Source of the DNA: Armillaria gallica
Taxonomy: Eukaryota; Basidiomycota; Agaricomycetes; Agaricales; Physalacriaceae
Direction of reading: 5' to 3'
DNA length: 64,000 nucleotides
NCBI GenBank assembly: GCA_037576215.1
Contig: JBANDB010000011.1
Span: 1,736,001-1,800,000 of the forward strand
The position numbers and the translations under genes were made by a program. Positions 7,857 to 57,674 of the stretch are shown here, in pieces (position 1 is the stretch's first letter; each line of letters starts with the position of its first letter). The notes beneath the pieces are model-generated. The model saw nothing but the letters and a program-made list of their open reading frames with translations. It ran no database searches and was not told the DNA's origin.

Positions 7857-8367
7857 ACAATGCTTGAGTCAATATTGATTGTCGTAGCACCGTTAGGCTA
7901 GAGCTTTGAAAATGGACTTCTACACTTTATAATACTACATGCATGTTAGAGCAAAGTCAGAACCGCCATCAGAATTGAGGAAGAAAGGTTGCGCTTTACC
8001 TCCGAAAGCGTCCTGGACCAATCCTGGACTCAGAGTCCTTACTCTGCAAAAAAGGAAGCCAAGAATATTCGAGCATCTGCGGCTTTCCGCGTATTTTGAC
8101 CTGGGCAAAGAGGTTGAAGGAGCGATCCGGGTAATTCGGATGCAAAATCCGAATCGTGATCGAAAGGTCACAGCCACCGCTCCATTTTCGTCCAGACAAG
8201 CAGTACGCCGTATCTTACGAATCCACCGAACAAAGTGTAACACTTTTTCTCAATCCTGAAACTAAAGGCGATTTGCCCATCTTCGACTTGAAGACTTCAC
8301 GGAGTTATGAAGTAGGCGTTGTTTCAACCTTATTATTCTAACGCTCAACACCTGCTTGTCAAGCACA
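7857..8367. other. Intergenic stretch between P450 and F-box gene
   Basis: An open frame of 106 codons (7939-8259) is present, but it has no recognisable domain and I cannot support it as a gene. The stretch probably holds the P450 3' UTR and the F-box gene promoter. Confidence 0.35.
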
Positions 8368-10029
8368 ATGAAAGAACTTGTCTACTCCCTGGAAGCCATA
8401 GTCTTGAACAGTAACAGTATAATCCCATCCGAGTGCCAGCTGGGAACTAGGGGCAGACTTTCCAAAGGCGACGTAAAGGCCGTCAAAGCAAGTAATGAAG
8501 CCCTTGAAAACGAATTACCCAATGTCGACGGTTGCATTCAAAAGCTAGACGTAATCCTTCAGCGTCTGCATCATCGACGCCACAAAGTCTGCGCCGCCCT
8601 CGAGCTCCAAAAGGCTCTTGTTCCTTTACCAAGAAACAAAAAATACATCTTGTCTCGAACCCCTTACGAATCAGCTCCAATTTCCATCCTTCCCTTCGAA
8701 ATCGTAAGCACTATACTCACACTTGCCGTCACTATGGCTGGAGGGGAGGTGCATAGTCTTGATATCAAACATGGCGCGCCGTGGATATTCAGTCAAGTCT
8801 GTAGCGCGTGGCGAGCTATAGCTTTGTCAACACCGTCGCTTTGGTCTCGAGTCATTCTCACTGATGAGTACAATGCTTTCACCGAAGAGGATAAGGACAT
8901 CCTACAGGAGTATCTCCGCCGATCGAACTCCCACCCATTGCGTGTCATAGTCGGTGCTTTCCCCGTCGATTGGGATATGTTTTATGAGACTTTAGAGTGT
9001 CTCAGGAACCATACCGCCCGTTGGGAGACCGTAGATCTGACGGTCGATTTCGAGGGGGTACACGTCTTCCCAGAGATTTTCCCTGAAAAAAGGTTTCCTA
9101 TCCTGAAGACCTTCAGACTCACTGTCGAAGGTCTAGATTCCTACCTCGTAGAAAGAGCTGACAATCCGCCTCGCCGCCTCATCGGGCTCCATAACAAATT
9201 TCGCGAGAATAACACAATGTTGCAGGATTGTCCTAACCTAGAGGATGTCTTGTTGCAGGGCGTCGGAATTAGCGAGGTATCCTTCCCGTTGACCGAGTTG
9301 AGGACCTTCCGAGGCGACATGTACGACCATACAGAACTCAGTCAACTTCTTTCGGGGGCTCCCGAGCTCACCCAGGCAACGCTTTGGATTAAATTCGGTC
9401 AGAAAAGCAATTTCACCGGCTCACCGGTGAGCCACCTAGGCCTTCGCTATCTGTCAATATACACCGATGTGGATGCCTTCAAATACGTGCACCTCCCACG
9501 TCTACAACACTTGCTGGTAGAGCGTTTTATAGCGATCAAGGAGAATCTCCGTATCGAGAAATTCATCTCAAGTTCGCAGTGTGAACTTCAGACGCTCTGC
9601 CTGAACGTGCCTCCGCTTCCCTTCGCGTATCTGTCATCTATACTCAAGAGTTGCAGCTCGACACTAAAAGTGTTATCTGTACACGTTGACGACACAATGG
9701 CGGAGGACCTGTATAATGTCCTCACGTACGAATCTGTATACTGTCTCGCGCCTCATTTAGAGGAACTCTTCATCCAGGATAACACCTACGGAAACGATTC
9801 GGTGAACCCTCCTGTGAAAGCGTTCGAGTACGGAAATGCGGCATTTTTGAATATGGTGTCGTCCCGGCGGCAGTTAAGATCGGAAACGACGCTGCTCAAG
9901 TCGATAACGCTGACTGCTCCTTACTCTCCCCGACCAAAAAGGTTGCTCAAGGCAATGAAGAAACATAAAAGAGATGGGATATCGATAAGATTTTATGGCT
10001 ATGTATGGACGATGACGCTCGAAAGGTGA
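8368..10029 (+). CDS. F-box protein with diverged leucine-rich repeats
   Basis: Probable substrate receptor for an SCF ubiquitin ligase. It is a single-exon frame of 553 codons from the first ATG. A coiled N-terminal segment of about 85 residues (IQKLDVILQRLHHRRHKVCA) precedes the F-box (PISILPFEIVSTILTLAV, then FSQVCSAWRAIALSTPSLWS). After the F-box comes a long region with spaced leucines of the kind LPRLQHLLVERF and CPNLEDVLLQGVGI, consistent with irregular leucine-rich repeats that would bind a client. This coil, F-box, LRR layout is very common and expanded in Agaricomycetes. The target cannot be predicted. Codon use and the lack of stops over 1.66 kb leave little doubt that it is coding. 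Confidence 0.9.
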   Translation: MKELVYSLEAIVLNSNSIIPSECQLGTRGRLSKGDVKAVKASNEALENELPNVDGCIQKLDVILQRLHHRRHKVCAALELQKALVPLPRNKKYILSRTPYESAPISILPFEIVSTILTLAVTMAGGEVHSLDIKHGAPWIFSQVCSAWRAIALSTPSLWSRVILTDEYNAFTEEDKDILQEYLRRSNSHPLRVIVGAFPVDWDMFYETLECLRNHTARWETVDLTVDFEGVHVFPEIFPEKRFPILKTFRLTVEGLDSYLVERADNPPRRLIGLHNKFRENNTMLQDCPNLEDVLLQGVGISEVSFPLTELRTFRGDMYDHTELSQLLSGAPELTQATLWIKFGQKSNFTGSPVSHLGLRYLSIYTDVDAFKYVHLPRLQHLLVERFIAIKENLRIEKFISSSQCELQTLCLNVPPLPFAYLSSILKSCSSTLKVLSVHVDDTMAEDLYNVLTYESVYCLAPHLEELFIQDNTYGNDSVNPPVKAFEYGNAAFLNMVSSRRQLRSETTLLKSITLTAPYSPRPKRLLKAMKKHKRDGISIRFYGYVWTMTLER

Positions 10030-46528: not shown

Positions 46529-49500
46529 TCAGTATAGATCGTCAGTGTCGCGGTCAACTTCTCCTTCGCTTGACAACTCTTCCTTCCATGCTTCCCGCGT
46601 CTTGGACGCATGGTTTTGGACGGCGTTGGTAGCGTGCAGAGCAAACGACCCGCCATCTTCGTCTGTAACATATCTAATAAGGCTTATGTCGGATTTATAA
46701 TAAGGAATCAACGTACAGTAAGTTAACGAAGCTTGCATTTCTACGGGGTTCTCTAAATCAGGTGTCAGGAGAAGGCCGTATACTAGGCTCAGCGTGTCCT
46801 TGAGGCTGATATCCGACGACCATAGGCGACCTAGCTCAGCGATACAGACTTTTCCTTGCTTCGAGATCTATACCGAGGCCACGGTTAGCGGATCGAACGC
46901 AAGTGAAGATTGACACACGTTTGGGTGTAAGATGAATGTCACAAATCGAATTTTGGGCGGGTCTCGGGGATAGAATTCTGGTAAACTGATAATTGTTGGT
47001 TAGTACAGGACCATTCGGAGATTTAACTACTTATTCGCATGTCAAAAGAAATGTTCCACCGGCGTATACGCAGTTGTCGGTATCCTTTGGTACCTTGTAT
47101 GCGAAAGAATGTGTAACAGCTCGGGTAGCATACCGCTGAAACAAACCTCAAGTACGAGCTTGAAGAATGAGATGTCGCTTTCGTTCACGTACACATCGAT
47201 GTTTGTATGAGGGTCTCTTACGATTTCCTTCAACTGTGAAAGGCACAATCAAGTCGGCGACACTAAATGAAACGAAGGAGAAATGAAATATACCTCACGC
47301 ATAATTCTCTTCTGACGGTCATTTTGGCTCGAGCCTGTGTGCACAGATTTTGAGGCAGGTTGTACATTCTCGTTTAGCTTCGAATGGTCGGCTCGTTTGG
47401 GGAAGCGGTCGATGGTAACCACATCGATGGGGTACAGGGAGGTGTTCCCGAGTATGTTCCAGTCCCAGATACCACGTATCTGAGGAGGTGCAGGTTTTGG
47501 TGGTCGCTCTATGGATGAGAGCATTGTCTCAAGGTCCTATCGTAGACATTAGTTTCTAGGTCGACAGGGAGAGAAACGGCGTACAAAGATACTGAGAGCG
47601 TCGCTAAGTGATGTCTGTGGTGCAAATCGATAGCCATTGGTGGCGACTGATATCTTGTGGAGGGTAACATTGCTGTATGTACCAACTTGAACGGAATCTA
47701 CTGTCACTTGATCTTTTTGTAAGGCGATGGCTACATCCCTGGCGGAAGAGACGGATTTGTTGTCATCACCTATTGTTCGATTAGCCTTCACGAGTGTGAA
47801 CATGAAATTTAGTCACCATCAGAAACAACTATGATTCGCTTTCGGAGGGTAGGTAAATCCTTGCGATAATTTATCAATGTGCTTCTTGCAGCGTTAAGCG
47901 CGTCATATAAGCATGTATCTCCTTTGGCATCCACATCTTCCAGTTGGCGTCGGAAATTCTCAAAAATCGGTGTCAGTTCTTGTTTTATGCAGACTGTATC
48001 AGAAACTGGGTGGAAAGAATGTCGTACATCAGTTTCCTATCCGGAGTCATGGGTAATGCTCACATGTAATAAGCCCAAGGACAAGCGAGACTGAGGTGTC
48101 AAAGGATCCCTAGATTGGGACGTTACAACTTCCCGAAAGATCGACGTAAATAGATTAGACGCACAGCTCGATTCAGAAGATGATTAACGAGCTCCTTCAA
48201 TACGTGCAGTCGCGTGAGGTATTTACTCTCCTCCTTTGCTCTGCGCTCTTCCGTAAGTCTCCAGCTCCACGTCAAGATCTCAAATTTGTGAAGCCCAGTT
48301 TGATTTTGAGAGATGTGTCCGGTACAGTCGTCGAGGTAGTCAAACAACCATCCTTTCCTCATGCCATCTCCGATATCGTCAAGACCATGCCTGAAGTTCA
48401 AGTAGTTTGAGTTTGAAAATGATTTCGAACGTAATTTTCCAAACTCACCAAAGTCTCATTTGCGATATGGGAAGTTCACGGAGCTGGTGGAGATAGCTGA
48501 GAACGCAGAGAGCAGAAGCGTTGCGTGGGAGAAGCATATTGACATGGTGGCCACGTAACGAGATCTCAGCTGTAATCCTTGCGCGCTTGTGTGGGGTAGT
48601 CCGTACAAGCTCAATAACTCCACCGACCGAGAGACTGGTCATGCTGATGGGCAAATCGCTCAAATTGACGGTGAAATGTGAGCGTCTGATGGCGAAGGAG
48701 CAATAGGCTGCCTCTGTGAATCGGTTGCAGATCGCATATAGAGTTCGTACGGTAGTGGAGATGGGTAGGTACCACGTCGTTTGTTTCCCCTGGTGCTTAC
48801 AAGTGATTGGCACCCACTTTCCATCATCGTCATCCAGTGATGACAAAAGGTCACCCGCAGATACCTACAACACAAGTCAAAATTTCGTCCCTCAACAGGA
48901 GACACGAGCACATACCCAGGTTTTTAGTTCCGTATAAGCGCCCAACACTGATACAAATGGTTCATAATAACCTAAAGGCCAGTCTCCACGTTGCTCGAAG
49001 TAATCACAGGAATCGAGGTTGACAAGTATTCCTTCACTTGGAGCATTTAGAGGGTTCTTCGGATTGCGTAGAAGATCTCCAGTTCTGAGAGTTTAGTCAG
49101 CATTGTCTTTAAATTTTAGTGGGAACGTACTTGGGATCAAGAAGCCGTACCGGTACGTCAAAAGGCGCCAAACCAGTCGATTCGGCTTTTGTAGGGTTGC
49201 GGAGCAGTTCTAGAATTGCATTCTTTTGGCGGGAGCAGGCGACAGCAAAATGGGCAAGCTAAACGGGATCATTAGTGGACAAGATTGTGTAGAACTCGGG
49301 ACTGTATCGCACATTGGTAATCTCATTCCTTAGATCCGGTTGGGATTCGAGAAGTTCATGATATCTCAGCGCTTCTCGGCTTGTAATTGTTTTAAGATTG
49401 TTTAGTAAGTCATATCTGTCCTCGCCTCCATGCCGGCCAAAGCCATAGAAGAATGATCGGACCTCATTATTCTGAGGTTTCTTGAGGTACGAGGACCAGG

Positions 49501-52500
49501 CATGTCGACATTCGTAAGTCTGGCTATTCAAAAATTGTTTGGCTATCCGGAGCCCAGGAGACATTAGTCTAGAGAATGAAGGTATGAACGACAGAACGGA
49601 CCATTTTCTAAGATGATATTATCAGAAACACCTGAGGTAATCTCGTCGATCACCTTCTGTGCTTCAAGATTGGGATCAAAGGCAGATCTGTCCGGGGGTC
49701 CCTCAGATCTTTTGCCAGGACGACTGACACCCGACTGCTCATTCATAGAATTACTGAGGTCAAGGCATAACACTATTGCCTATATATTGCCAGAGCGAAG
49801 GTGAGTGAATGATTGAATTTTGCATGAGAACTCTTGCCTCGTCCGGGGACCGGTTTGTTCCAGAAAGACCGTCAAAGCTGTCAACCTGCCACGTATTTTC
49901 TGCCTGTCTCTCCGCGATGACTTTTTGTAGGGCATGGCTAACATCATTGACATCCACTTCAGTGTCGCCTCCGTGTCTGTCCGAAATGTTGTGAGTATTT
50001 ATGCAGAAAACCATAACAGATGGACAACATACGAAGGCCTAAAAAAGTTGACGTCTCGTGTCGAGCCGCAACCGCGACCAGTGAATACTGCAAGGAACCC
50101 CTGCAGATAGTGATCGCACTGTTTAAACCCAACGGAAGAGTATTATTATAACGCACCACTTCATCCAGCACGATTTGTAAGGGAATCACGTTCACCGCTT
50201 TGAGGTCCAACGGTCCCCTGGTGACAAGGTCCGTCTCATTCACTCGTTTTATGGCACTGTGGAAGTCTCGACCCAAACTATCAAGACTGTAGACAGAGGA
50301 TGATGAAGGAGGATCGACTCTGTGCGGAAAGAACACGATTTTCGAAGAATAATCAAGCAACTTGGAGTGAGAAAGGAGTTGATTCAGTATTAATTTGGTC
50401 GAATCTTCCATATCCGCCACCGCCGGCATGGCTGTTCCGTGAGAGGGCCTAAATAGCTCTCCACCTGCCCGTCGGAGCGCGCTAGCATCTCTGTTAACAT
50501 GTTCTGTGCCCACTAAGACGGGGTCAACAAGTCGCTTCTGCGACACACTGCAAACGAGAGAGATATCTTCCACTATGGGGTTCGCCGAGTTTGAGTCGGT
50601 CACTTCCCCCATTGTCAGGACATGACCGAGAAGAATGCGGGCCTGATGTTCATGGTGTCTGTAAGTACAGGTTTCTCAATGTGGAACAAGAAATGAACTC
50701 ACGGCTTCGAAGAATCGCCCCGGATTGGTGCTGATCTGTACAGGACCTGCAATGCCAGCTGGTATGAAATCGCGGAGCGCGTGAAAGGTAGCCTCTGATA
50801 GCGCCGCCCGTTCCTCCGGAAGAGGGTTCTTGTTCCGAATAAGGACGGCCACTAAATAAGCTTAGTCCCCGTGCAAATTGTTCTGGATTTATCGCTATGC
50901 TCACGAGTACGAGCAGCGGGGGGAAACCTAGTGATCGTGTAGAGAGAAGAGATGATCCTTCTCTCTGCGGCACTCCCTTTGTCTGCAACTATAGCGCAGA
51001 GCCTATACAACGACGCAAGAAAGGCGGACATTCCCCGAGGCGTCTGGATGATGCAAGGCTGATACGACATGTCGCTCAGATACATACTCTGCTTCGACGT
51101 GACGCCTTTACCGCCGGTATTACTATGCTGTCGGTGCCGTTTGACAACGTAGAGAGAAATCTCTTGGCTCGTAGGGGAGAAGAGTTCGCTCAGAAGAGCG
51201 CAGCCGCAAGCAAGAATAGGTGACCGGGAGGTATGCAGATCTACACAAAACGGTCCCATTGACTCGGATGCCCGGTTGAGGTAAGTCTTATGACTAAAAA
51301 GATCGAATCGCCGATGATTCAGGGTAGTATGCTTCAAAGACGAGCAAACGCTGACAAGGGTAGAGCGTGTCAGACGGGTACATCTAGTAGGTAAATGTAA
51401 ATGTGGGGCAATTCATGGGGAAGAAAGTACTTGCTCAGTGACTGGATTGCGATAATGAATCCTGATTGACAAACCAGAACGCTCATAGTCCTTCCCGGAG
51501 AGAAAGTCCTCCACGAGTGCGATGATATCTTTGGTAGGCAGCTGAATCACTGAGTCAATGGTCCCGGCAGTGAGTGGAATTGGAATTCGCTCAATCCGAT
51601 CGCCGTCGTAAGCGATGATGATGTGTCGTTCAGATGTGTCAAAGATAGTTGGCTCTCTGGGATATCTATCAACTGAACAACCGGAAGGGCAGCCTGGACT
51701 GCTCATTCCTCGCAAGCAGTGGTGATGGTGCATATGCATGCATCCTACGTTCTATGAGAGTTTCAGATTGAAGTTGAGCTCGTGGACGGAAATGAAGTCT
51801 TACCTGTACTAAAGGACAAAACAAGACCTCGCCGGGATCTATATCATTCTCGGTAGCAAATTTCATACAATCCGGACAAGGAAATCCTGAACATTTCAAA
51901 GTTACGATTGGGTGTAATGACACGAAACAAAACCTTGCCTAAGAATTCTGCACAGATACTACAATGTGGTGGTTCGTCAGCGGGAAGGTGGTCTGTAACA
52001 CCCGTCAGCTTATGCCTTTAGTCTTTTGTTAAATAAAAAAGACTGACCGGAAACAGAAACGTGCGAATAGGGACACGTTTCATTCTTGCAAAGGCTTCCA
52101 TTTGTTGTAAACCGACAATGCAAAGTCGAGGCTAAACCATGCTGCTCTATCTCTGTAGCTATAACGCAACTGCAGGCGCTTTCAGGTTCGTGTTGGCATT
52201 GGTTGTCTTCCTCATATTCGCCCCAGCCTAAGACGCGACAAGCTTCGGTCCTTAGGGAGCACTGAGTAAAATGTCATACATTGGACAAAGAGATGCAAAA
52301 TTGCGCGCACAAGCGTAGTGTTACCACTTATTGCTTGGCCTTCGAAACAGTGCACGCCATTTGGGTGCTCTCCCTGCTCTTTTGGCGTCTGTCGAGCGTA
52401 ATCACGGGCGCTTTTGGCAGTGATGAGGCGAACCCTAAACCGTCCAGGTTCTATGGCTGAGGCTTCCGGTACGGAAGAAGTGAAAGGTTTGGGTGGGTTC

Positions 52501-52874
52501 AGGTCAATCTGTGCCGGCTGTTGCGAGGAGTATCTCGCGGTAACGATTTCACCATCGTCAATGCAGTCGATTCCGCTTCCAACATACAAGTCAGCTGCCC
52601 GCAGTTCATGAATGTCAATAATTAGACCTTACTCTTGCCTACGAAGCTCAAAGCCGCCAGGCAGTTCAAGAACAATATTAGCGGGATCTTCGATGCTAAC
52701 GTAGCTCGCTATCTCTTGGATGAGGGTTTCGTTCGAGGCGCTTGCGCCGATCTGAACCTGGAACAATAGGAGCACTCAGGAAACAAATTCTGAATCTAAG
52801 CTTACTATAAATTTCCTTTGGTTTTGTATATGCTCAGTTTCAAAGGCAACCAAAATCCGCCGTTTGGAAGACAT
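46529..52874 (-). CDS. Giant Ubl / RING-like / vWA / E2 ubiquitin-pathway fusion protein
   Basis: Multi-exon gene, read from 52874 (MSSKRRILVAFETEHIQ). Order of parts: a ubiquitin-like segment (ETLIQEIASYVSI, LELPGGFELPDLYVGSGIDC, DDGEIV) and perhaps a second (GRFRVRLITAKSARDY to ISGNTTLVRAILHL); a Cys/His-rich region (CSIC, CPDC, CMHMHHHHCLRG, GCPSGC) resembling RING; a long middle part (PEERAALSEATFHALRDFIP; LVCSVSQKRLVDPV); vWA MIDAS CLDLSNSMNE near 49765; two ubiquitin-like segments (WVPITCKHQGKQ to SVGGVIELVRT; AEISLRGHHVNMLL to MRLWHGLDDIGDG); the rest of vWA (LGLITF, GDTCLYDALNAA, RIIVVSDGDDN); and a C-terminal E2 with RDPPKIRFVTFILHPN and active Cys in GKVCIAELGRLW (46844-46846), ending at TGA 46529. 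E2 plus possible E3 functions in one chain are inferred. Two introns appear GC-AG. The 50,650-51,430 and 49,560-49,630 joints are uncertain. Confidence 0.8.
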
Positions 52875-55519: not shown

Positions 55520-57674
55520 TTAGAACAGCAAAACAATAATTACCGTAGCTAGCATGGACAGACATGGTCTACTAGCCTTGCCGATGGCCATGGCGGCATT
55601 GTCCTGACTATTTGAAGCATCACTGCTGTTATCCGACGGTGACGCTGAGTCCACCGCAGTCGCCGTAACAGAAGCAGTGCCTGACGCCGATGACAGCGTC
55701 CCTGTGGTCGACTCCGTTAAACCCGCGAGGCTAACCGTCACTTGACTCGCAGCTGCGGCCTCGGCGGTCGGCGCCAATTCTACCGTAGCTGGTAGCAAAT
55801 ACAAGATAAGGAAAGTTTAGAAAACTCGAAGGGAGCAGAAGCGCACATTCGAAATTCCCGCCATTAGCTTCTGCATCTTTGACTGCTTGTTGCAGTAGGC
55901 TATCAGCGTTGTCGGGGACAGTCGAGAGGATGCCCACGCGTGGTGGGTCGACCGAGGGATGGGTGAGGTTCCCATAGTGGAACGCTACGAGATTCCTGAC
56001 GAAAGTCCGCAGTATTAGTCAGGTCGGAGACACTTAGATTAGGTAGCACCATACGATTTAAAGAACGGGTCTCCCAAGCTCCAGCGATAAAGTGATCCCC
56101 GACCTGGCGGGTCAGTGGAGACGAGGTTGTCCGCGACGCAGTTGGTAGCATCACCAGAATGGAGGTCTCCGATAAAGTCCCTAGGGTCTATGGGAAACAT
56201 CTATCTTCATATTGAGCATAGTGCAACACTACCACAGCCTGAAGGAATAGATACCTTGCCGCCGATCTGAAATGACAGCGTATGTGCCGTAGCGCATGGC
56301 AAGATTGCTTGACTCAAATAAGCATCCGATGCATTATATGAGGACGACACTGTTGAAAGAATGTTCTTGACAACGTCCGAGGGTCCACGAAGAAGAGAAT
56401 TTCCCTGTTGTCATGTTAGCACCAAAGTTGATGCCGCCGCTAATAATTAGAAGTACGGACTGTATCGATCAAGGCAGATACACGAGTGCCGTCGACACCA
56501 TCGGTAGCAGCTTCGGTGGAGTCAGCAATCTTCTGACCGTCTAGATAGACACCATCTATGTCTATTTCCCAGCGACTGGAGGAAGATGAGTTCGAACTAG
56601 TGAGGGCAACACTTGAGCTTACAAAGGGTACACCTGAAAAACAGACTCAGACAGACTCAGCTTAAGTCAAAGATGAACCTACCTCATCTGGGGCAAACGA
56701 CGGAGGTCTAAGCCCTCCCTCACCAGAAGAATATAGTCTAACAGGTACCCAGGTCAAGGACGAATTATCAATGCCATCAGGCAGCTTGCCAACAGTAAGC
56801 GTGCCGTCTCCACCACCAATGTCAATAGTATCTCGCTGAAGAGCAATAGAGAACATAGGAGCCTGGAGATAATCCGTCATAACTATGCGAGATAGTAACG
56901 GTCCATCATCGGACGTCGCCAGCACAAAGTTATCCGTGTTGGTGATGTCACCAGAGGTATGCTCCACCACGGCTTCCTGGACTTTGCTTCCACTGGGAAA
57001 GCCCAAACCGAAGATACCAGCTACGCCATATTTAACGGTGGGATTCGTAGTGGTATTGACGGCGACAAAGGTTTGTCCGGTTATGGAGATGCCAGCAATT
57101 GTGGCCGTTTCAAAGGCTATAGGTCCAGAGGCCGACGTCCCTGTGGTGGAGTCGCCGTAGTTCATGGTGACCTCGGCACCAGTCAAGTTTAACGTTGAAG
57201 AATCGTAACGTGCTGTGGTTACAGATGAACACGTTCCACCGTTACATGTGTCCGTGATTACCCAGAGATCGCTGGATCCTGTGTCTATAACAAATGGAAA
57301 ACGAATGAGCTTCTATGATTGGCGACGCGTCTGTGGAGGATCGAGGCGTTCTCACCAAGGTGTACAGCAGTAGCATCATCCCCAAGTTCAATAGGAACAG
57401 TGTATAATCTGGCACAAGCAGATTCGTCGTTCAACACATGCAGCTTCCTAACACAAACAAATGCTCACAAGTCGGAATTGTCACCTAGCCCGACAGACCC
57501 ACTGACATCGCCTCGTTTACCAGGTGTAGTGCTTCGTTTGTTACTTCTTAAAATTGGCAGGTCGAATCCACCACGACCTTTTGTCACGTCCTGAGGTAGG
57601 AATTTGACAGGTATCGTCGCACCAAATGACGTGGAGGTAATCAAAAGCCAGCAAAGCAAAAGAAGAGAATGCAT
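55520..57674 (-). CDS. Secreted aspartic protease with GPI-type tail
   Basis: Pepsin-family (A1) peptidase directed to the cell surface. I chose the ATG at 57674 because it directly starts a signal peptide (MHSLLLLCWLLITSTSFG). A propeptide follows. The first active-site motif, DTGSSDLWVIT, starts right after an intron near 57285. The flap region is MNYGDSTTGTSASGPIAFET. The second active site reads SALIDT joined over an intron (near 56400-56465) to GNSLLRGP, so the D-T-G itself is split. Further blocks are MFPIDPRDF, RWSLGDPFF and AFHYGNLTHPSVDPPRVG. The C-terminus is Ser/Thr-rich (SSASGTASVTATAVDS) and ends in a hydrophobic run, LATVIIVLLF, typical of GPI attachment. Like yapsins it may process or digest proteins at the wall. 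Confidence 0.88.

Follow-up and report, generated by a model that had tools for sequence, protein, structure and literature searches.

An Armillaria gallica gene joining ubiquitin-like, RING-H2, split vWA and E2 domains is a candidate E2/E3 hybrid enzyme

The window analyzed here, a 64,000-nucleotide stretch of the Armillaria gallica genome (86 Mb in 28 contigs), carries a gene of 27 exons at positions 46529..52874 of its minus strand, on which all features described below also lie. The coding sequence runs from an ATG at 52874 to a stop codon ending at 46529 and encodes a predicted protein of 1651 amino acids. The exons were first drafted by eye, and the draft was used as the protein query to find relatives. 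The final exons come from alignment of the DNA by spliced dynamic programming to the proteins of Desarmillaria tabescens (P0001) and A. nabsnona (P0002), and they assemble in frame without stop codons. The 26 introns are 46-60 nucleotides long, of which 22 have GT-AG ends, three have GC-AG ends, and one has AT-AG ends. The first-pass annotation had proposed that one gene in this span, which proves to be the coding sequence, joins ubiquitin-like, RING-like, vWA and E2 domains. This claim is borne out by the assembled exons and by co-linear orthologues.

The D. tabescens protein (1670 amino acids) represents the same gene from end to end with 86% identity, except for two frame shifts. One lies at intron 5, where the final model takes a GC donor, and the other lies in the E2 exons, where the P0001 model retains an intron. 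The A. nabsnona protein (1421 amino acids) starts in the RING region and yields the same exon set from there to the stop codon, with zero shifts. Intron 2 has an alternative donor and acceptor that can be read by eye; the version chosen agrees with P0001.

Intron 24 (46986..47034) has AT...AG instead of GT...AG ends. Its donor at 47034 reads AT, and this choice is forced by the reading frame and by an equal protein junction in the protein models P0002, P0004 and P0005. Given that the intron opens with ATAAGT, the gene in this strain might be a decaying copy. We consider this very improbable, since all 27 exons are open, that same junction is found in the three other Armillaria models, and AT-AG introns can be spliced. 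Furthermore, the protein is 97% identical over 1398 columns to that of A. nabsnona, its closest relative in this study and its starred sister in our tree.

Some species have half-length models, which are N-terminal in P0044, P0045 and P0053 and C-terminal in P0046 and P0052, and these may be splits or genuine short forms. Such models would also be expected if two adjacent genes, one for the ligase part and one for the vWA-E2 part, had been wrongly joined. We rejected this two-gene reading, which we find scarcely credible. When the window protein is divided into 28 blocks of 60 residues, every block is covered by each of thirteen models of 1641-1698 amino acids (P0006-P0018), which come from Mycena, Hohenbuehelia, Favolaschia and Pluteus plus one of metagenomic origin and are 45-48% identical to it. 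In addition, the predicted vWA fold crosses the border after residue 828. This fold needs its first strand (residues 813-828) as well as the part from residue 1243 onward, which places both halves in one chain.

Three protein searches uncovered 59 distinct relatives (P0001-P0059). The first, made with the draft, found 45 proteins, and the second and third scored only about 8000 candidates sharing most words. Named relatives come from the agarics Armillaria, Desarmillaria, Mycena, Favolaschia, Roridomyces, Hohenbuehelia, Pluteus, Volvariella, Lyophyllum, Tephrocybe, Termitomyces and Collybiopsis, and also from Serendipita. As had been anticipated, these fungal proteins are mostly present in databases as hypotheticals. 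The residue counts given below refer to 58 relatives (P0001-P0058), with the window protein and P0059 excluded, and include only those filling at least 80% of the stretch in question; short or locally disturbed models (for the RING, P0031, P0033, P0042, P0043 and P0048) may drop from them. Relatives outside Armillaria are about 40-49% identical to the window protein, and the retention of ligands at this distance argues that the architecture is more than chance. Querying this genome with the draft of the C-terminal part revealed no paralogues, as the 12 matches at E <= 0.01 are exons of the gene itself and E2-type matches elsewhere that involve the E2 part only. Scans of prokaryote genomes with two to six short peptide patterns found no relative.

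The protein is predicted to begin with a ubiquitin-like domain at residues 5-80 (52530..52862, introns inside), which adopts a beta-grasp fold in the structure model and whose fold-search list is filled by ubiquitin-like proteins. Two cysteine- and histidine-containing elements follow. The residues C175-x-H177...C183-x-C185 (52166..52198) are a possible zinc knuckle, with all four residues present in 36 of 46 members. A CCCH zinc finger of the form C-x8-C-x4-C-x3-H occupies residues 202-220 (52061..52117), and its ligands are kept in 42 of 44 members; matches to Pfam CCCH models are weak and below the cut-off. These two elements are absent from the first-pass annotation, as are the two U-box-like segments and the split of the vWA domain described below.

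Residues 235-295 (51677..51963, two introns inside) carry a RING-H2 finger with the pattern C-x2-C-x7-C-x2-C-x16-C-x7-C-x-H-x2-H-x-H-C-x8-C-x3-C. The Cys/His block that had been read from the sequence is the second half of this longer pattern. In the alignment with RBX1, the finger shares the C-x2-C-x7-C-x2-C start and the subsequent C-x-H-x2-H-x-H-C of Rbx1/Apc11 RINGs, but differs from them in closing with C-x3-C rather than C-x2-C and in residing within a 1651-residue chain. Of the 41 members covering the finger, 36 retain all 11 ligands. The exceptions are P0021, P0035, P0041, P0047 and P0002, the last of which fails because its model begins inside the RING.

Profile comparisons place this finger nearest the Rbx1/Apc11 class. 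Among 14 RING pieces cut from the window protein and 13 relatives with readable RINGs, zf-rbx1 matches all 14 (best 4e-6), zf-RING_16 matches 10, zf-ANAPC11 matches seven (best 6.7e-6), and PHD-type models match a few (best 0.0011, for one piece). RBX1 chains are also at the top of a PDB search (E 0.0017). A profile built from a second RING and from an Apc11-like RING of the same genome, whose sequence still includes an intron, picked only windows overlapping this finger among 77, at up to 44%. The first-pass annotation had proposed profile searches as a check, and these succeeded for the UBC domain, whereas zf-rbx1 scores remain below the curated cut-off of 31 bits, both for the window piece (18.2 bits) and for the full-length relatives with bits given (13.9-20.4). 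At E <= 0.1, zf-rbx1 is detected in 12 of 16 full-length relatives (best 0.00055).

Several beta-grasp-like segments had been claimed from the sequence. The N-terminal one is upheld by its modelled fold, whereas the others are proposed from strand order in models. Segment 2 (residues ~313-390; 51341..51625) was recognized in this way in the P0044 model only, and two tandem segments (residues ~1068-1142 and 1148-1230; 48270..48816) within the vWA insertion were recognized in the P0005 model. Among the fold matches listed, none falls on segment 2 or confirms the tandem pair. A ubiquitin profile applied to the 77 windows produced nothing above 2.6%, so the beta-grasps are unproven by sequence. 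Fold-search lists are filled by vWA, E2 and ubiquitin-like domains; the U-boxes, the RING and the other beta-grasps rest on other evidence.

Directly before the vWA domain is the motif FTGRGCG..RDVNFFRP..GGDTEVDVNDV (49916..50097), which ranks with the best-conserved parts of the family. For the five full-length relatives scanned, Pfam lists no family at this place. The first strand of the vWA domain (residues 813-828; 49744..49849) carries the MIDAS D-x-S-x-S, and the remainder (residues 1243-1413; 47513..48233), located by alignment of the modelled fold, includes T1311 and D1343. The vWA MIDAS noted in the first reading is thereby confirmed, with D-x-S-x-S present in 53 of 54 members, T in 45 of 45, and D in 47 of 47. 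In the model these parts adopt a vWA fold, and structural alignment joins the first strand to the later part across an insertion that splits the domain after residue 828 and before residue 1243. The best vWA alignments are to TFIIH subunits, whose matched chains we take to be p44/Ssl1. Rpn10, the proteasome ubiquitin receptor, lies within about 2 Z among other vWAs. In the Volvariella model P0049, nearly the entire insertion is absent and the vWA is almost unbroken, which agrees with an insertion but may be a model error.

Two segments resemble U-boxes. Segment 1 (residues 611-675; 50373..50567) contains C-x2-S-x-K-R-L-x-D-P-V, of which the C and DPV are kept in 45 of 52 members, and it is the best window in a scan of the 77 windows with five real U-boxes. 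Segment 2 (residues 983-1060; 48838..49168) lies within the vWA insertion. The scan peaks at residues 581-711 (75%, score 30.6) and 961-1091 (50%, 26.95), and reversed windows reach at most 0.4% and a score of 11.6. Segment 1 is modelled as a hairpin and helix, and both segments exhibit short strands and a helix. The Pfam U-box cut-off is not reached in the family, as only two of 14 chosen segment 2 pieces match (best E 0.026), and the first piece of this set has no Pfam U-box match. A PDB search with the segment 2 pieces alone retrieved no U-box, and the RING of MSL2 ranked second (E 0.57). Segment 2 is shortened in P0027, P0028, P0030 and P0048, and P0032, P0035 and P0049 have 50 or fewer residues at this location.

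A distant relative, P0059, is a metagenomic protein of 1380 amino acids that matches the family at E 2.1e-125. Like the window protein, it has a related pre-vWA motif, a vWA with an insertion, and the start of an E2, in the same order. Unlike the family, it carries a true U-box (Pfam E 3.4e-17) within its vWA insertion, where the U-box of the family is diverged. Segment 2 aligns to this U-box at 95.4% and E 1.8e-8, and to the five other U-boxes at only 26-50%. We regard both segments as diverged U-boxes with moderate confidence. The gene model of P0059 lacks the CCCH finger, the RING and the N-terminal ubiquitin-like domain, and its E2 is cut off at the end, but it is a single model, made on a contig of 7550 bases, and exons may be missing.

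The C-terminal residues 1478-1640 (46565..47320) form the predicted E2 (UBC) domain, whose core the first-pass annotation had recognized from its HPN and Cys residues. The draft of this part matches UQ_con at 2.7e-25 (89 bits), and UBE2N is matched at 5.4e-23 with the family profile. In P0005, the A. mellea orthologue modelled with AlphaFold2, Foldseek pairs the region with one chain of the UBE2D1 complex 7zj3 (E 1.9e-6, TMt 0.74, 29% identity); this chain was taken as the E2 from its length. Structure prediction, proposed earlier as a check, thus recovered both the E2 and vWA folds, the former at modest confidence. The HPN and Cys are present in the window protein and in 39 of 42 members (P0029, P0035 and P0057 fail), and the codon for the predicted catalytic Cys1565 is at 46844..46846.

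Compared to UBE2N, the domain has Arg after YP, WSSD in place of WSPA, CIAEL in place of CLDIL, and PDLENPL in place of PNPDDPL. Based on the alignment of the family profile to UBE2N, we take these positions to be Phe62, Pro95/Ala96, Asp87 and Asp116/117 in UBE2D numbering. Every one of the 41 members that cover these sites has Arg, Ser and Asp at the equivalents of Phe62, Pro95 and Ala96, which in UBE2D are the usual RING contacts. The Asp87 equivalent is Ala and the Asp117 equivalent is Asn, each in 40 of 41. As other E2s vary at these positions too, the changes only hint at consequences for RING pairing or lysine use. Ordinary RING-to-E2 pairing within the chain is consequently not to be assumed, nor is simple self-ubiquitination assured for an E2 that is devoid of the usual RING-contact and lysine-steering residues. 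The remodelled surface suggests that this E2 might pair only with its own ligase part and not with general RING ligases, and it argues for such private pairing or for ubiquitin transfer to non-lysine residues.

These changes bear on two other readings of the protein. In the first, the long arm of the protein would hold a substrate to which the E2 itself passes ubiquitin directly, as in UBE2O and BIRC6, and the RING and U-box-like parts would be non-catalytic binding or structural modules. The alteration of the RING-meeting surface in 41 of 41 members and the divergence of the U-boxes are consistent with this arrangement, as is the precedent of BIRC6 and UBE2O, large animal proteins that combine E2 and E3 function in one chain according to excerpts of PMC13061254. 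However, the RING ligands are kept almost as widely as the E2 motif (36/41 versus 39/42), which would be odd if the RING were dispensable, and we consider this reading improbable. Less probable still is a UBE2L3-like E2 that serves only thiols or other non-lysine acceptors and would pass ubiquitin to a cysteine or hydroxyl of its own chain or of a partner. The Asn and Ala at the Asp117 and Asp87 equivalents fit this possibility. According to excerpts of PMC5095918, the acidic residue D117 of UBE2D1 positions the lysine that comes in, and UBE2L3, which has His instead, was sensitive only to thiols. However, the argument rests on two positions, Asn may still work, and the adjacent acidic E1596, a position that is always Glu or Asp in the 41 rows reaching it (window included), could stand in.

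We favor, with modest confidence, the reading that the gene encodes a self-contained E2/E3 hybrid ubiquitin enzyme, which makes the self-contained transfer machine of the first-pass annotation plausible. Sequence and models predict a chain in which an E2 with its core intact is combined with a RING-H2 like that of Rbx1/Apc11, a pair of diverged U-box-like segments, a split MIDAS vWA, a CCCH finger and at least one ubiquitin-like fold. The hybrid reading is favored because the gene is conserved end to end, the E2, RING and MIDAS residues are kept, the E2 and vWA folds are recovered in models, the RING is nearest to Rbx1/Apc11, the vWA aligns with those of TFIIH and Rpn10, and in P0059 a true U-box shares its chain with a vWA and the start of an E2. 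It is further favored by the existence of other hybrids (excerpts of PMC13061254) and by an E2-annotated Hokovirus match over 1220 columns. It is weakened by the changed E2 contacts, the C-x3-C end of the RING, the zf-rbx1 scores under the cut-off, the PHD-type matches of some RING pieces, the shortening of U-box segment 2 in several members, and the modest confidence of the modelled E2. Under the hybrid reading, ubiquitin would be loaded by E1 onto Cys1565, and the RING-H2 of the same or a partner molecule, perhaps together with a U-box relic, would clamp the E2-bound ubiquitin. The vWA and ubiquitin-like parts might bind the proteasome, a ribonucleoprotein particle or some other substrate, and ubiquitin would then be handed to the bound target or to the protein itself.

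E2/E3 hybrids are already known as a general kind of protein, but this one has a more unusual architecture than the first reading suggested. We know of no Rbx1-type RING or vWA in BIRC6 or UBE2O, which resemble the window protein in being hybrids in a single long chain. According to excerpts of PMC2964712, BRUCE/BIRC6 likewise has its UBC domain at the C-terminus, and the fungal clade 6A PARPs, which are also multidomain E2 proteins, carry a C-terminal UBC domain but differ in having a PARP catalytic domain; neither a RING nor a vWA is mentioned for them there. Three relatives, P0014 from Favolaschia and P0022 and P0029 from Mycena, already bear the submitter name 'putative bifunctional E2/E3 enzyme'. 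They belong to the same family, being co-linear and 46-48% identical to the window protein, and P0022 and P0029 lack its first residues. Mimivirus R795 carries the same name. The literature searched contains nothing in print on the relatives so labelled and no paper on the family, which a 2008 E2-fold review may mention. Thus the first-pass statement that no pathway is described stands within that literature, whereas such hybrids as a class are known and some relatives were already labelled accordingly.

In the model comparison, a protein of a giant virus seems to be built in a similar way. The best BFVD match to the P0005 model is A0A1V0SEK3 of Hokovirus HKV1, a klosneuvirus of the Mimiviridae. 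This protein has 1329 amino acids, is named an E2 ubiquitin-conjugating enzyme, and matches the vWA-to-E2 part with a Foldseek E of 1.3e-36 over 1220 columns; the next best protein reaches 9.6e-8. However, it differs from the family in having only 17% identity, and with TM 0.38/0.34 and an rmsd of 17.8 the match reflects domains in order, not how they are placed relative to one another. For the N-terminal model, the match to this protein reaches only E 9.3e-4 (prob 0.63), so a common RING part is not established. Scans of viral contigs with patterns from the family profile, the C-terminal part, P0059 and a joint alignment confirmed no relative. These scans use two to six short peptides, and thus there is no conflict with the Hokovirus fold match.

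A tentative scenario, possible but rather doubtful, is that an E2/E3 hybrid lineage is common to agarics and giant viruses, has moved between them, and has had one ligase half replaced by another. The U-box form represented by P0059 would be the older one and might have given rise to a form that gained an Rbx1-type RING and the CCCH finger, whose U-boxes decayed (one within the split vWA) and whose E2 was remodelled for its own ligase part only. Ubiquitin tagging is normally divided between an E2 and many separate E3s. A single chain with both would offer a direct test of E2-ligase pairing when the partners need not meet, the family lets evolutionary swapping of the ligase module be examined, and with the giant-virus match it becomes possible to test whether viruses and eukaryotes have exchanged an entire ubiquitin machine.

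The tree takes in 29 of the 60 sequences, and in it the branch of P0059 is very long. Serendipita, which belongs to an order distant from the agarics, is placed among them next to Hohenbuehelia with 85/78 support, a weak hint that the gene may have been transferred.

The gene for the predicted E2/E3 hybrid ubiquitin enzyme carries one intron with AT...AG ends and the donor ATAAGT (window 47034-46986, minus strand). When the window DNA was aligned to proteins with splicing allowed, the gene model of the Desarmillaria tabescens orthologue was found likewise to go wrong at the exon of this intron. Thus, the odd AT donor may be old in the Armillaria/Desarmillaria group, as judged from the D. tabescens protein model. 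The gene also has three GC-AG introns (window 51938-51887, 51434-51384 and 49837-49780, all minus strand), which may account for the differing lengths of its database models.

In the family tree, the copies from Serendipita are placed within the agarics, adjoining Hohenbuehelia, with support of 85/78. This nesting hints at either transfer or wide loss of the gene.

Two family copies each are listed for Tephrocybe rancida (P0027 and P0048) and Pluteus cervinus (P0015 and P0025). Within each pair, the contigs given for the two copies are of equal length, and the T. rancida copies additionally have consecutive locus tags, and therefore these pairs are probably duplicates in some agarics. A search of the window's own genome using the C-terminal draft as query found no second copy of the family gene.

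In the alignment, the Volvariella volvacea model (P0049) lacks nearly all of the insertion that splits the vWA domain in family proteins, such that an almost unbroken vWA domain is followed by E2. This protein could be either a natural insertion-free form or the product of a gene-model error.

Elsewhere in the window, open frames were recognized by eye that resemble a cytochrome P450 (6498-7856, plus strand), an F-box protein (8311-10029, plus strand) and a pepsin-type aspartic protease (56662-57312, minus strand).
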